Part shown: positions 15,584 through 56,599 of the stretch, piece after piece | Position numbering within the stretch: the first letter of the stretch is position 1 | How the letters are laid out: each line of letters opens with the position of its first letter | DNA from: Fimbriimonadaceae bacterium | GTDB lineage: Bacteria; Armatimonadota; Fimbriimonadia; Fimbriimonadales; Fimbriimonadaceae | Direction: 5' to 3' | Assembly: GCA_022843485.1 (NCBI GenBank) | Contig: JALHNM010000008.1 | Span: 1-64,000, forward strand | DNA length: 64,000 nucleotides | Program-made: the position numbers and the translations under genes | The notes under the pieces: generated by a model | What the model was told of the DNA's origin: nothing | Database searches by the model: none | The model's input: only the letters and a program-made list of their open reading frames with translations

Positions 15584-15653
15584 GGCACACTCCGGCGTGT
15601 GCCAACCCTGTGCCAACCGCGTGCCAACCGCGTGCCAACCGCGTGCCAACGAC
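15584..15653. repeat. 11-bp phased GTGCC array
   Basis: Five direct 11-bp units (GTGCCAACCNN) run from 15599 to 15653. To their left is one unit in inverse orientation, GGCACAC at 15584-15590, forming a 7-bp palindrome with GTGTGCC. On the minus strand the core is GGCAC every 11 bp. It lies between the DinB-like gene and the secreted protein at 15827. Arrays with the same GCAC core and period occur at 38968-39011 and 53158-53245. Confidence 0.7.
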
Positions 15654-38777: not shown

Positions 38778-38967
38778 CGGGGTCTCCCGTGCCATGTTCC
38801 TACGCAGGGAGTGTACAAGCCGGTTGTGGGGACCGCCCCCTTGTCGTCGCGTTTTTAGGGCCGGGGCTGGGTCGGTGAGGCGGGCTTACCTCGCCCTTGG
38901 AGCCCGGCGTGTGCGCTGGGCGAGCACGGCGGTCCCACGGTGGTTCTGAGGGGGAAATGCAAGCGGT

Positions 38968-39011
38968 GGCACGGGCTCGGCACGGGGTCGGCACGGGAGC
39001 GGTACGGGCGG
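38968..39011. repeat. 11-bp phased GGCACGGG array
   Basis: Units at 38968, 38979, 38990 and 39001: GGCACGGGCTC, GGCACGGGGTC, GGCACGGGAGC, GGTACGGGCGG. Exact 11-bp spacing, core GGCAC. It lies 62 bp before the ATG of the 39074 gene. Same core and period as arrays at 15584 and 53158. Confidence 0.7.
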
Positions 39012-39073: not shown

Positions 39074-39721
39074 ATGGCGGTCGTGAAACCAGGGATCGGG
39101 CTCGGGGGTCTGAGCGGGACGAGCGGGGGGGCGGTCTTCGCCACGCTGCGGGACGGGACGGTGATCGTGCGCGAGCGGCCGGGTTGGCGGGGGAGCCCGA
39201 CGCGGGCCCAGACCCTGTCGCGCCAGGCCTTCCGTCGGGCGGCCGGCTCGTGGGGCGGGCTCACGCGAGAGGAGCAGGCTTCCTGGCTCGCGTGGGCCCG
39301 TCTCAGCGACCCCTTTGCGGGGGCGGACGGGGCGGTGCGGGCGTATGTGTCGCTCGCGGTGCGCTGGCTCGCGGTGAACCCGATGGGCACGCCGCCGAAG
39401 CTGCCTCCGGCGGCGCCGTTCGCGGGGGACGCGGTCGCGGTGGCGGCGACGGCGGCGCCGGGGGCCCTCGTCTACTCGCCTGACCGGGCGAACGCGGCCG
39501 GGATCGTGACCGAACTGCTCGGGGTGCGGGTGCGGTCGTGGCTCGCGAACCCGCGGGACCGGGACTTCCGGGCATTGGGGCAGGCGGCGTTCTCGGGGGC
39601 GGGGGCGGCGGTGTCGGTGCCGGTCAAAAGCGGGCGCTATGCGACGGCGGTGCGCTTCGTGCGGGTCGCGAGCGGGCAGTCGTCGTCGGTGTTGCGGCTG
39701 GGGGTCCTGGGAGTGGGTTGA
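39074..39721 (+). CDS. Hypothetical protein, Gly/Ala/Val-rich
   Basis: 215 residues, no signal peptide. Starts GIGLGGLSGTSGGAVFATL followed by RDGTVIVRERPGWRG, then a helical part with SRQAFRRAAGSWGGLTREEQASWLAWA (Trp-rich) and an Ala/Val-rich C-terminal half. I recall similar starts in small environmental-bacterial proteins of unknown role that could be virion or repeat-associated, but I cannot name the family. Codon use is extremely GC-rich. ATG 39074 lacks a clear ribosome site. Confidence 0.6.
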   Translation: MAVVKPGIGLGGLSGTSGGAVFATLRDGTVIVRERPGWRGSPTRAQTLSRQAFRRAAGSWGGLTREEQASWLAWARLSDPFAGADGAVRAYVSLAVRWLAVNPMGTPPKLPPAAPFAGDAVAVAATAAPGALVYSPDRANAAGIVTELLGVRVRSWLANPRDRDFRALGQAAFSGAGAAVSVPVKSGRYATAVRFVRVASGQSSSVLRLGVLGVG

Positions 39722-52107: not shown

Positions 52108-52319
52108 CGCCCGCCCGACCCCCTCCCGCGCCTCCCGCTCCCGCCCCACACCGCCCATCGTACCGACCCCCGACCCAGACACCTCCAAGGAGCGCGGGCC
52201 TCCCGGCCCGCCCCCCGGTCCGCGGGCCTCCTGGCCCGCAAGTACCGTGCCCATGCCAGGGGAGGCCCTGGGGCAGGACGCGCCAGAGCCCACGTCCGGG
52301 ACGGACGTGCCACGACCGG
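52108..52319. other. Intergenic region with two GC hairpins
   Basis: GCGGGCC/GGCCCGC hairpins occur twice: 52194-52211 (loop TCCC) and 52222-52239 (loop TCCT). No gene is convincing between the APH start and the family C repeat. Confidence 0.4.
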
Positions 52320-52368
52320 GCGGGTGGCCCGGCCTGACCCGTAGGGCAGGCCGGGAGCAGGGACCCCT
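52320..52368. repeat. Palindromic intergenic repeat, family C copy 2
   Basis: Matches 2801-2849 with two or three changes; one change falls in the hairpin loop, leaving the 8-bp CCGGCCTG/CAGGCCGG stem intact. Here it is between two minus-strand genes. Confidence 0.65.
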
Positions 52369-52479
52369 CCGGCCACGCGCTCCGGTCCTCTGCTGGGCTA
52401 TCCCCCATGGACGAGGCGCCCGCGGTGGCAGTCGGCGACCCACGAAGCCCCGCCGGTCGGCTGGGGCTGACCCCCGCTG

Positions 52480-53052
52480 TCAGCCCACCGTGACGAACGT
52501 GGCCGGGTCGTCTTCGCCGTACCAGTCCATCACGACCGGAAGGCCGGTGGCCGAGCGGAAGGTGCCGAGGCTCGAGCGGCCCGGCTCCGTGGCCGCCGCG
52601 GAAAGCAGAACGTCGCGGACGCGCCCGAGAAGCTCCCGGTTGGCCACGTCGAACCCCTCCGGGTCCTCGTCGGCGTAGGGGAGCTCCGCTGCCGCCGCCT
52701 CGATGGACTCGACCATCGCGCAGACCAGCACCCCGGACCGGGCCAGCGCGTCGGCCCCGTCGACGAGGAAGGCGGCCACCGCCCCCGAATCGGCCCGGAC
52801 GTTCAGCCGCATCTCCGTCCAAGGCCCGCCGGCCTCGGCGCAGGGCTGGAGCGAGGACGCCGCCACGCTCCAGAACTCGCTGAGGTCGGCTCCGTCGGCG
52901 AAGACGTCGCTCCCGACGAGGCCTTCGAGCTGGACCCGGTTGACCCTCTCGCCCTGGACCTCGACCCCCCCGAACGTGTCGGGGTCGAGCACGAGGCCGG
53001 GCAAAGACCGCTCCGGGCCGTGGATGCTGAAGTACGTCGTCCAGGTGACCAC
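52480..53052 (-). CDS. Hypothetical protein
   Basis: 190 residues from GTG 53052. This start is chosen because GATAAT ends exactly 6 nt upstream and the protein-like sequence begins here (VVTWTTYFSIHGPERSLPG); the frame is open to 53142 without a ribosome site. Alpha/beta protein with an Ala-rich helix (ESIEAAAAELPYADEDPEGF) and an acidic tone. Family not recognised. The 11-bp array at 53158-53245 lies upstream. Confidence 0.6.
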   Translation of the reverse strand: MVTWTTYFSIHGPERSLPGLVLDPDTFGGVEVQGERVNRVQLEGLVGSDVFADGADLSEFWSVAASSLQPCAEAGGPWTEMRLNVRADSGAVAAFLVDGADALARSGVLVCAMVESIEAAAAELPYADEDPEGFDVANRELLGRVRDVLLSAAATEPGRSSLGTFRSATGLPVVMDWYGEDDPATFVTVG

Positions 53053-53058
53053 CCAGCC

Positions 53059-53064
53059 ATTATC
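53059..53064 (-). promoter_or_regulatory. -10-like hexamer GATAAT, probable leaderless start
   Basis: GATAAT, GGCTGG (6 nt), GTG 53052. The downstream edge of the 11-bp array is about 95 bp away. Confidence 0.45.
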
Positions 53065-53157
53065 CCCGGCCCCGGTCGTCCGAGGGAAGGGGAGGATCTG
53101 CGGCCCTCGCCGCCGGGTCGGGCCCGACCTGAACGGCGACACGACCGGAACATCCTC

Positions 53158-53245
53158 GCTTCAAACCTGCTTCAACTGTGCCTCAAACGTGCTTCAAACC
53201 CCGGTTTGCAGCACGTACGCAGCACGTTTGAAGCACGTTTGAAGC
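53158..53245. repeat. Inverted 11-bp phased array (GCTTCAAACGT)
   Basis: Eight contiguous 11-bp units. Four run GCTTCAAACCT-like (53158, 53169, 53180, 53191); the next four run in reverse orientation, ending with two perfect ACGTTTGAAGC (53224, 53235). The two halves are complementary and could form a cruciform or hairpin about 44 bp long. Core on the reverse units is GCAC every 11 bp. Confidence 0.75.
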
Positions 53246-53264
53246 ACACAGCCCCCGCAGAAGA

Positions 53265-53291
53265 CCCCTCTCGGCAGCCTGCCGAGAGGGG
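53265..53291. terminator. 12-bp hairpin terminator of the PEP-CTERM gene
   Basis: CCCCTCTCGGCA and TGCCGAGAGGGG flank a 3-nt loop, 9 bp beyond the stop of the 53301 gene. On the minus strand TCTTCT follows. Confidence 0.7.
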
Positions 53292-53300
53292 TTCGAGACC

Positions 53301-54146
53301 TCAGCGACCTGCGGTCCGGCGGCGGGAGGCTCGCCAGCCGGCGAGGGCGAGGAGGCCGAGGGCCATGGTCGAGGGCTCGGGCACGGGGGCGCCGTAGGCC
53401 ATGTCCCGCCAGTCCTTCAGGCCGGTGTCGCCGACTTTGGTGAAGGAGGGGGTGCCGTCGAGGGTCATCGAGTAGAGCGTCCCGAGGCTGTCGAGCCCGT
53501 AGAACCCGTTCCCGTCGTACACCATGCCCGTGATCGCCGCGTCGAGGCTGTCCAGCTGGCCGACGAGCTGTTTCGAGTTGTCCTCCCAGGTCGCCTTGTA
53601 GACGTACTGCGTGAGGCCGTCGCCGGACTCTTGGTTGAGCACATAGAACGCGTTGTCCTTCACCGCGAAGGCGTCGAAGCTGTTCACCTTCGGCCGGATG
53701 ATCTTGATCGGCCCCCGGACGAAGCTCGTGAAGGTCACGGCGGCGTCTTGCGCACCCGGGCCGCTGCTCGCGACCAGCCCCTCCTCGATCTTGTTGGTCT
53801 GTCGGTCGTCGAGGGTGCCTCCGTCGAGGTGGGGCGCCCCGGAGCCGTTCACCGTGAAGAGCACGTCATCGAGCGCCCCGGTCGCGAGGTCCTTGACTAG
53901 CCGCAGCTCGCCCTTCGCGTTCGTGACCCAGACGCTGCCGGTGGGGGCGACCGGGCCGCCGGACCAGATGTGCAGCCCCCATGCGTCGTCCTGGAGCTTC
54001 ACCACGCGGGTGGCCTTGGCCGTCCCCGCGTCGATCTGGTAGAGCCAGTTGTCCGCGTTCACGGCGTAGAGCGAGGCGGTCTGGGCGTGGGCCCCCAGGG
54101 CAAGCGTGCCCAAGGCGGCCATCGTCAAGGCGGTGCGTGTGCTCAT
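53301..54146 (-). CDS. PEP-CTERM exported protein
   Basis: 281 residues. Signal peptide about 21 residues (ends AHA), a propeller-like beta domain with repeated LYAVNADNWLYQID and NGFYGLDSLGTLYSM elements, then VPEPSTMALGLLALAGW and a basic tail (RASRRRTAGR), the sorting signal. ATG follows GGAGAAGG, a strong ribosome site; TATACT lies about 40 nt upstream. Confidence 0.88.
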   Translation of the reverse strand: MSTRTALTMAALGTLALGAHAQTASLYAVNADNWLYQIDAGTAKATRVVKLQDDAWGLHIWSGGPVAPTGSVWVTNAKGELRLVKDLATGALDDVLFTVNGSGAPHLDGGTLDDRQTNKIEEGLVASSGPGAQDAAVTFTSFVRGPIKIIRPKVNSFDAFAVKDNAFYVLNQESGDGLTQYVYKATWEDNSKQLVGQLDSLDAAITGMVYDGNGFYGLDSLGTLYSMTLDGTPSFTKVGDTGLKDWRDMAYGAPVPEPSTMALGLLALAGWRASRRRTAGR

Positions 54147-54250
54147 GTGTGTCCTTCTCCGGTCACCCCGCCCAAAGCGGCGGGGCCACCTTGAGTATAC
54201 GGCGGAATGGGGGCGGCCGAGCCCCGCCCCCCGTCACGTTCAGGCACAGT

Positions 54251-55168
54251 TCAGGGGCGTCGGCGCCGGGCCACGAGGGCAGCGACCCCCACCCCGAGCG
54301 CGAGCATGGACCCCGGCTCCGGCACCGTCTTCACGACCCAGTCGTTATGGTCGCGCAGGGCGGTGAAGAACGGGATCTTGCCGTAGACCGAGCCGTTCGA
54401 GCTCTCGGCCACGCCCGCGACCTGCCACTCGTCGCCGACCTTGATGAAGAACCCGCCGCCGCTATCCCCGGGCGCGGTTGCCCCTTCGAGCGTGGTCGGG
54501 GTCTTGGTCGATTTGTTGCCGCCGAGCGCCTCGAACGGAGCCATCGTGTTGTTCGCCTCTTGCCCGTCGTCGAAGTCCAACATGAACGTGTTCTTGACGA
54601 CGAACTCGTTGTTCCTCGGGTCTTTGAGGTCGATCGCGTCGATGGCGTTCGTCGCCGCGCGCCTAGTGCCGTCGGGGTCGCTCATCGCCCCGGTCTTGCC
54701 GTTCCCGAAGAACCCGAACCCCGCGAAGGCCCCTTCTGTACCGTGGAGCGTCTTCGCGTCCCACTTACCGGAGTAGAGCTTCGAGGGCGTGACGCCGGTC
54801 ACGGCCTTCTTGAGCTTGACGAGGGCGATGTCCCGCCCCTCCCCCTTCTTGTCCTTGTCCCAGGGCAGGGCGTCGTGGAAGACGATCTTGTCGGCGAGGA
54901 ACTCGGCGCCGTTGATGGTGAACTTGAAGTCGGCGACGGTGCCGGCGTCCTCCTTGATGACGTGGGCGGCGGTCAGGACCCACTCGCTGGCGATCAGGGT
55001 CCCGCTCCCGAAGCTGTCCTTGCCGGAGAGCTTGCCGACCGAGGTGAACGTCTTCCCGAAGTCCACGTAGTCGGAGTCCTTCTTGGAGTCGAGGCCGGAG
55101 ATCGCGTGGGCCCCGGCGGTCAGGGCCGCGAGCGCGGCGACGGCGAGTGTTCGAGTGACGTTTGTCAT
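54251..55168 (-). CDS. Trypsin-like serine protease with PEP-CTERM tail
   Basis: 305 residues from ATG 55168. Signal peptide about 22 residues. S1 triad: His69 in LTAAHV, Asp113 in RDIALVKL, Ser236 in GDSGGG. The C-terminal 24 residues (282-305) are a PEP-CTERM signal: VPEPGSM, a hydrophobic stretch, RRRR. A surface-sorted protease beside another PEP-CTERM protein (53301) and opposite an XRE-TPR regulator (55262). No activating propeptide is evident. Confidence 0.9.
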   Translation of the reverse strand: MTNVTRTLAVAALAALTAGAHAISGLDSKKDSDYVDFGKTFTSVGKLSGKDSFGSGTLIASEWVLTAAHVIKEDAGTVADFKFTINGAEFLADKIVFHDALPWDKDKKGEGRDIALVKLKKAVTGVTPSKLYSGKWDAKTLHGTEGAFAGFGFFGNGKTGAMSDPDGTRRAATNAIDAIDLKDPRNNEFVVKNTFMLDFDDGQEANNTMAPFEALGGNKSTKTPTTLEGATAPGDSGGGFFIKVGDEWQVAGVAESSNGSVYGKIPFFTALRDHNDWVVKTVPEPGSMLALGVGVAALVARRRRP

Positions 55169-55261: not shown

Positions 55262-56599
55262 ATGGAACGGCGTATCCTGGTGGTGGACGTGGGCGCAGCG
55301 CAGGAGGTCGGGGTCGGGGAGTTGGGCGGGTTCCTGCGGGGGCACCGCTTGGCCGCCCGGCTGTCCCTCTCCGAGCTCGCCCGGCGAGCGGAGGTGGCGA
55401 AGAGCACGCTGAGTCGCTGGGAGGCGGGTCGGGCGGAGCCGGACGTGGTCCCGCTACGCCAGGTGCTCCGGGCGCTCGGGGTGGACGCCGCCGGGACGGT
55501 GCAGGCCCTGGCCCTGCTCCGGGCGCCGCGGGGGGCGAGGGCCCTGCGCGAGCTCGACCGGCGCGAGGGACGCGACCTCGGCGAGATCGGGGTGTCGGCC
55601 CCGGTCTTCGGGTCGGCGCTGCGGGCCTTGCGGGGGCGGTCCGGGCTCACGGCGGACGACTTGGCCGGGCGAGTGGGCGTGGCCAGGTCGACCCTCGGGC
55701 TTTGGGAGACGGGCCAGCGCATGCCCGGCTCGCGCGACCTGGCCCTGGTGGCCGAGCTGTGCGGGGCGGGGCCCGAGGAGCGGGCGGCCCTCCTCGAACG
55801 CCGTCTCCCCGTGCCCCTCGGGCCGGAGGGGCCGGACAGGCTCGTGGCCTGGCTCGAGCGGCTGGTAGACCGGCTGGCGAGGGAGCGGCGGGTCAACGAG
55901 GTCGAGGCGGCGGGGTTCGAGGCCGAGGCCTGGCGCCTGGCCCAACACGACGACCGCGGGGCGGCGCTGCTGGGGCAGTACTACAACGTCCGGGCCGGGG
56001 CGCACTGCGAGACGTTCGCCGTCGCCGAGGTGCGGCGGTCCGCGACCAAGGCGCGCGACCTACCGTTTTACGACGCCCCCCGGCTGGTGAGCCACGTCCC
56101 CGAGTCGTGCCTCGCGTGGGTGCAGTACGGGACGGTCGGACTTGGCGGGATGGACCGGACGCTGCGGCGGCTCGAGCGGTGCTTCGAGCGGCCGATGACG
56201 GGCTACGAGCGGTGGTCGCTGCACCTGTTCCTGGCCCGGTTCTACGCCGAGCAGGGGCGGGTCGACCGGCTGGAAGGGTCGCTGGCCCAAGCCGACCGCG
56301 AGGCCGGGGACGACGCCCACCAGGCCGAGCTCACCATGACCTACTCGGCGGACTGCTGGGAGGCGGCCGGGTATCCGGAACGGGCGTTGCGGCTCCTGCC
56401 CGAGGAGCTGCCCGACGTCTGGGCGGTGCCGGCGCACCTCGAGACGGTGCGGCTGAGCGCGCTGGTCCAGCTCGGGGAGCGGGACGCCGCCGCCCGGTCG
56501 CAGCAACGGCTCCACGGGTGGATCGCCGAGAGCGGGATCGTCACCGTAGAAGCCCGCCGCGCCCTCGGCCTCTACCGCGGCCGCTTCGGCGAGGCGTAG
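55262..56599 (+). CDS. Double-HTH XRE-family regulator with TPR-like region
   Basis: 445 residues. Two Cro/C1-type helix-turn-helix domains, about 20-75 (LRGHRLAARLSLSELARRAE) and about 115-172 (LRALRGRSGLTADDLAGRVG). Each is followed by a recognition helix ending STLSRWEAGR or STLGLWETGQ. The rest (about 200-440) is helical and TPR-like, as in activators that sense peptides or proteins. Extremely GC-rich. Divergent from the PEP-CTERM protease with 93 bp between, so it may control it. Confidence 0.85.
   Translation: MERRILVVDVGAAQEVGVGELGGFLRGHRLAARLSLSELARRAEVAKSTLSRWEAGRAEPDVVPLRQVLRALGVDAAGTVQALALLRAPRGARALRELDRREGRDLGEIGVSAPVFGSALRALRGRSGLTADDLAGRVGVARSTLGLWETGQRMPGSRDLALVAELCGAGPEERAALLERRLPVPLGPEGPDRLVAWLERLVDRLARERRVNEVEAAGFEAEAWRLAQHDDRGAALLGQYYNVRAGAHCETFAVAEVRRSATKARDLPFYDAPRLVSHVPESCLAWVQYGTVGLGGMDRTLRRLERCFERPMTGYERWSLHLFLARFYAEQGRVDRLEGSLAQADREAGDDAHQAELTMTYSADCWEAAGYPERALRLLPEELPDVWAVPAHLETVRLSALVQLGERDAAARSQQRLHGWIAESGIVTVEARRALGLYRGRFGEA

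Follow-up and report, generated by a model that had tools for sequence, protein, structure and literature searches.

A phased, inverted array of 11-bp repeats in a Fimbriimonadaceae genome, a solo copy of arrays that precede genes of one protein family

R1 ParR requires two 11-bp repeats, and the ParR families of C. perfringens each recognise their cognate repeats only (PMC9426499). REPtrons consist of a TnpA-REP (RAYT) gene with cognate REP palindromes, and their gene and repeat co-evolve (PMC8266576). The PHO boxes of PhoB/PhoP-type response regulators contain two 11-nt direct repeat units (PMC4415409). Here an array of 11-bp units from a Fimbriimonadaceae bacterium, its copies and the genes linked to them are described and set beside these systems.

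The window analysed covers the initial 64 kb of contig C8 (JALHNM010000008.1) of a 2.96 Mb genome in 20 contigs (G000; GCA_022843485.1). A preliminary description had reported eight contiguous units, four in one orientation and four inverted, without a gap, and direct reading of positions 53158-53245 (88 bp, 8 x 11 bp, gapless and in exact phase, with imperfect units) bears this out. The array and its flanks are as follows.

53124..53157, no strand assigned: shared flank, common to the other solo copy in the genome, C2:289838-289972
53158..53201, plus strand: arm 1, four direct 11-bp units of the GCTTCAAACGT type
Units of arm 1: 53158 GCTTCAAACCT; 53169 GCTTCAACTGT; 53180 GCCTCAAACGT; 53191 GCTTCAAACCC
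53202..53245, minus strand: arm 2, four inverted 11-bp units
Units of arm 2, inverted: 53202 CGGTTTGCAGC; 53213 ACGTACGCAGC; 53224 ACGTTTGAAGC; 53235 ACGTTTGAAGC
53246..53257, no strand assigned: outer flank, ACACAGCCCCCG, with CGGGG (other strand) kept in each of the genome's three class A copies

The two arms (43 nt, spacing 2 nt) are 81% complementary, Tandem Repeats Finder gives period 11 for both halves of the array, and of the repeat lags 7-24 in the window, lag 11 ranks in the top two. A two-unit pattern allowing up to 3 mismatches matches the window five times, always inside the array, against 0.02 matches expected from shuffles, and the array is far beyond chance. Its setting is also as first described, between a hypothetical gene (52480-53142, minus strand) and the terminator of a PEP-CTERM gene (53301-54146, minus strand; Pfam PF07589); a terminator-like hairpin occupies 53265-53291 on the latter gene's side. 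The hypothetical gene may truly begin near 53050, where a GTG right after GGGGATAATGG would make it leaderless. Upstream of the PEP-CTERM gene, positions 54240-54257 hold GTTCAGGCACAGTTCAGG, a pair spaced 11 bp with two units only, and a gene with two XRE-type helix-turn-helix domains (55262-56599) lies ~2 kb from the array.

A genome search found the unit of the window array at two further sites, C2:289848 and C5:217311, both in the 4+4 layout (class A). Between the C2 and window copies identity is 84% over 112 bp, flank included, and because the 34 bp before the window array are common to both, what was copied extends beyond the array itself. The C5:217311 array stands in front of a gene, C5:216569-217231, belonging to the protein family described below, and the window array is a solo (gene-less) copy of that 4+4 array. 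A fragment 12 kb from the class A gene (C5:204742-205008, L083) is 92% identical to the C-terminal part of that gene. Other GTGC-type units form arrays at C1:46107, C3:162418, C6:28791 and within the window, and the exact four-unit GTGC pattern recurs in three of 60 relatives, namely G001 (same genus), G008 and G016 (both same family); the genes flanking the window array were not found in these three genomes in an empty-site comparison at the DNA level. The window holds two more period-11 arrays with other units, at 15599 and about 38968, which are listed here with the linked gene.

15599..15653, plus strand: solo class B array on the downstream side of a DinB-like gene, with five GTGCCAACCGC-type units
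38967..39010, no strand assigned: gene-linked class B array, four units CGGCACGGGxx, ~64 bp upstream of the gene at 39074
39074..39721, plus strand: family gene, 215 aa, N-terminal domain and FnIII-like domain

A general GCAC core, proposed at the outset, is confined to some classes, and other arrays have quite different units. A GTGC core was considered as the signature of all arrays and rejected, since the units of other paralogues differ.

When the array loci were compared with one another by BLAST, several arrays proved to adjoin the same gene in different genera, and the genes behind the arrays belong to a single family, of which G000 has about 19 loci and some fragments. Eleven of the 19 loci have their own upstream array of four 11-bp units, and the unit is different each time (for example GTGCTTCAAAC, ATAGTCCGAGC, ACCGATGGACG, CGCCTAGAAAC and TCTCCTCCTGT). 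Of 60 family genes of relatives, 26 have a lag-11 score of 23/33 or more in the 500 bp upstream, and none of the other lags between 7 and 19 attains this more than once in the same genes. As background, 280 kb of genome not picked for arrays contain one place at 21/33 with lag 11, a score reached by 0.2% of random 500-bp genome pieces. The genome thus contains many further phased arrays whose period is always 11, with no free variation of unit length seen, which supports the earlier proposal of helical phasing, here as a rule.

Across 42 arrays, units 0-3 have 7.9-8.4 of 11 bases in common and units -1 and +4 fall close to background (2.9 and 3.2 of 11, respectively), which sets the unit number at four; the four-unit window was picked by score, and a fifth unit would still show. 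The array starts at -73 to -139 from the start codon in 36 of 42 cases, and no arrays were found on the 3' side of family genes. A CCGAnnAT motif, read as a probable leaderless promoter, directly precedes the start codon in 29 of 42 array genes vs 2 of 17 array-less genes, the latter making up nearly one clade of the family tree, plus three others. A phased inverted second arm is present on the gene side in 19 of 34 arrays (p<=0.01, shuffles) and on the side far from the gene in 5 of 40, and 4+4 is the complete form of the array. Functionless minisatellite slippage, for which the tandem units and the G+C-rich genome could speak, hardly deserves credence given a period that is always 11, four units, a constant place, an inverted arm and conservation between genera.

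The same layout bears on whether the array acts as an RNA hairpin or cruciform with a 44-bp stem, for instance as a terminator or mRNA stabiliser. The window array folds very stably as RNA (-51.7 kcal/mol, z -8.3) and has a terminator-like hairpin on one side and the next gene on the other, and the hairpin or cruciform envisaged in the preliminary description is thermodynamically possible as DNA (-28.5 kcal/mol, z -6.9). As the main function it is unlikely, because the arrays keep strictly to direct repetition, whereas their second arm is absent or degenerate in about half of the gene-linked cases. Those arrays, moreover, lie upstream of putative leaderless promoters, and an Rfam search of 52400-54300 matched no family; we regard this explanation as highly improbable.

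Of 291 Armatimonadota genomes, 34 contain the protein family, which occurs in a patchy pattern with 1 to 28 matches each, and is expanded to 10-20 paralogues in several Fimbriimonadaceae genomes. A collection scan with the family alignment returned one named relative (CP075364.1, Fimbriimonadaceae bacterium ACE_ARM1). Family members had no match above threshold in Pfam, PHROG or NCBIfam and no transposase signature in these libraries; a sub-threshold match in one of 14 members (E 0.036, below any cut-off) points to DUF6266 (PF19781) as a possible remote relative. We know of no array associated with DUF6266, and a literature search for this domain and for 11-bp tandem repeats in Armatimonadetes found no papers. 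A phage, plasmid or viral source of the family was considered and set aside, no match being found.

Three sequences were modelled with middling confidence. The AlphaFold model (pLDDT 75) comprises a beta hairpin and three helices besides a C-terminal FnIII-like domain (VIA Z up to 9.6), and the N-terminal part modelled alone (pLDDT 73.5) matches nothing; the fold search with this domain never exceeded VIA Z 2.8, which does not by itself prove a new fold. No DNA-binding fold was recognised in the family protein, either by sequence or in these middling-confidence models. Several family genes (L080, L063, L099, L106) have a low-complexity insert between the N-terminal and FnIII-like domains.

Unit and protein vary together. 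In cross-genome pairs, proteins at least 50% identical have units that are more alike (7.68 vs 6.00 of 11, permutation p 5e-5). Unit similarity tracks the identity of the N-terminal domain (standardised coefficient 0.26, 0/3000 permutations) and not that of the FnIII domain (coefficient 0.006, p 0.45), with p 0.007 for the difference, the signal being a correlation over related sequences in which the permutations leave some shared ancestry. That most family members have an array of their own in front of them, with more copies scattered over the genome, points to recognition of each array by its own protein.

The explanation we put forward, to which we give an even chance of being right, is that the array is a self-recognition element bound by the encoded protein and controlling that protein's own promoter, the window array being its dispersed solo copy. 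The protein would bind its own array through the N-terminal domain as a head-to-tail multimer, with four protomers per arm, all on one helix face, and the bound protein would control its own gene, the array lying just upstream of a mostly leaderless promoter. Solo arrays would be extra binding sites in trans, quickly gained and lost; the protein of the C5:216569-217231 gene would have the window array among its targets, and this array might affect the downstream gene 52480-53142. Self-recognition is favoured by the near-identical units, the strict helical register, the fixed unit number, the unit peculiar to each gene and the conservation of the unit with the protein. An alternative, that the array is the operator of some conventional regulator binding in tandem, for example a response regulator of the PhoB/OmpR type, would account for the promoter-proximal place and for a unit length and head-to-tail layout as in PHO boxes (PMC4415409). 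It is nonetheless improbable, as the unit differs per paralogue, too many units for a single regulator or a handful of them, and no regulator gene is consistently linked beside the arrays.

Solo copies, one to three per class, accompany eight of the 11 array classes in G000, and not all are palindromic. A solo array of the TCTCCTCCTGT class (C4:71644-71687, L283) has six units rather than four. Solo units are nearest the gene-linked array of their own genome (4.45 vs 3.39 of 7 in class A and 3.85 vs 2.89 in class B), and the true pairing of solo and gene-linked genomes is the best of 24 in each of the two classes. G016 has one gene-linked array and two solos that agree at 92/92 bp, with flanks about 68-85% identical, which indicates selection on the array or its homogenisation. 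Three G001 solos (L064, L070, L073) agree fully over their units and have unrelated flanks. Of five solos checked by neighbour gene, one is kept: the array at window position 15599, which in G008 also adjoins the orthologue of the DinB-like gene. The other four were not found in G001 or G008, where synteny is mostly broken; with one of five kept beside the same gene and synteny often broken, most solos do not look like a conserved regulon, so solo arrays appear to be gained and lost. Two solos (L071, L081) sit between convergent genes and thus cannot be promoter sites.

These copies raise the possibility of a REP- or MITE-like mobile element, in which the array or the 4+4 palindrome (about 60-135 bp with flanks) moves. 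It would accord with the identical-unit solos in unrelated flanks of G001, with solos that are mostly not common to relatives, with the two solos between convergent genes and with the palindromic form. Mobility does not, however, need a constant place upstream of promoters or a constant unit number, no target-site duplication was seen by eye, there are just one to three solos per class, and the G016 arrays are better conserved than their flanks. The family has no transposase signature, and the genome's Y1_Tnp genes are not near any 11-bp array: within 3 kb around four Y1_Tnp matches the lag-11 score never exceeds 19/33 and no GCTTCAAAC core occurs. One of these genes, RAYT-like (C6:21695-22021), is flanked by its own, different REP-like repeats in eight copies. 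Short G+C-rich dispersed repeats of this kind are found at 52189-52362 of the window (core about 52322-52356, dozens of genome matches), and their eight copies around the C6 gene make them look like the REPs of that RAYT. This separate RAYT/REP system is not the explanation of the 11-bp arrays. We consider such a mobile element, carried by some other enzyme or by the family protein and with the copy before each gene as the source, unlikely but well worth weighing as the main rival to self-recognition.

Self-recognition and array mobility are compatible. Counted against self-recognition are the protein's lack of a recognised DNA-binding fold, the position of some solos between convergent genes and the small number of solos kept. 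The rigid rule of 11 bp, four units and a per-gene unit kept between orthologues, linked as it is to an orphan protein family, is, for its part, strong evidence of a recognition system of a new kind. With somewhat less than even confidence, we tentatively propose that the family is a new sequence-specific DNA-binding family with a novel N-terminal domain, each paralogue reading its own phased array of four (4+4) units. If true, dozens of natural protein/site pairs would be available in related bacteria, from which a recognition code could be read, and solo arrays would be small private regulons or anchoring sites; should the arrays prove mobile, they would represent a novel type of small repeat in bacteria. 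The arrays give a first functional clue to a protein family that no library names, and a pairing of gene and dispersed repeat other than that of transposase with REP.

Among known systems, ParR/parC is similar in having short direct repeats (~11 bp) by the promoter of the locus, an arrangement found here as well; a binding protein encoded in the gene cluster downstream of the repeats, binding as a multimer and family-specific repeats are ParR features (PMC9426499). The present arrays differ in being chromosomal, in their 4+4 inverted layout and in their dispersed solos; no ParM-like or other constant partner gene was seen in the array neighbourhoods read, and the family protein gave no ribbon-helix-helix match by sequence or fold, the latter in models of middling confidence. 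REPtrons likewise combine a gene and its own palindrome with cognate copies dispersed in intergenic DNA, but the array-linked protein has no Y1/HUH transposase match, and the arrays have direct 11-bp repetition and few copies. PHO boxes also have 11-nt direct units upstream of promoters, head-to-tail binding being a PHO-box feature (PMC4415409); here, in contrast, one genome has eleven different units and not a single consensus, the linked gene is not a response regulator, and the units number a fixed four plus an inverted arm. The gene/array pairing resembles ParR/parC, PHO boxes and REPtrons by analogy of logic only, and none of the three accommodates it as a family. Taken together, the proteins, the rule of four gene-specific units and the solos match no system named or found and are rated as new, and the 11-bp array is apparently an element of an undescribed kind.
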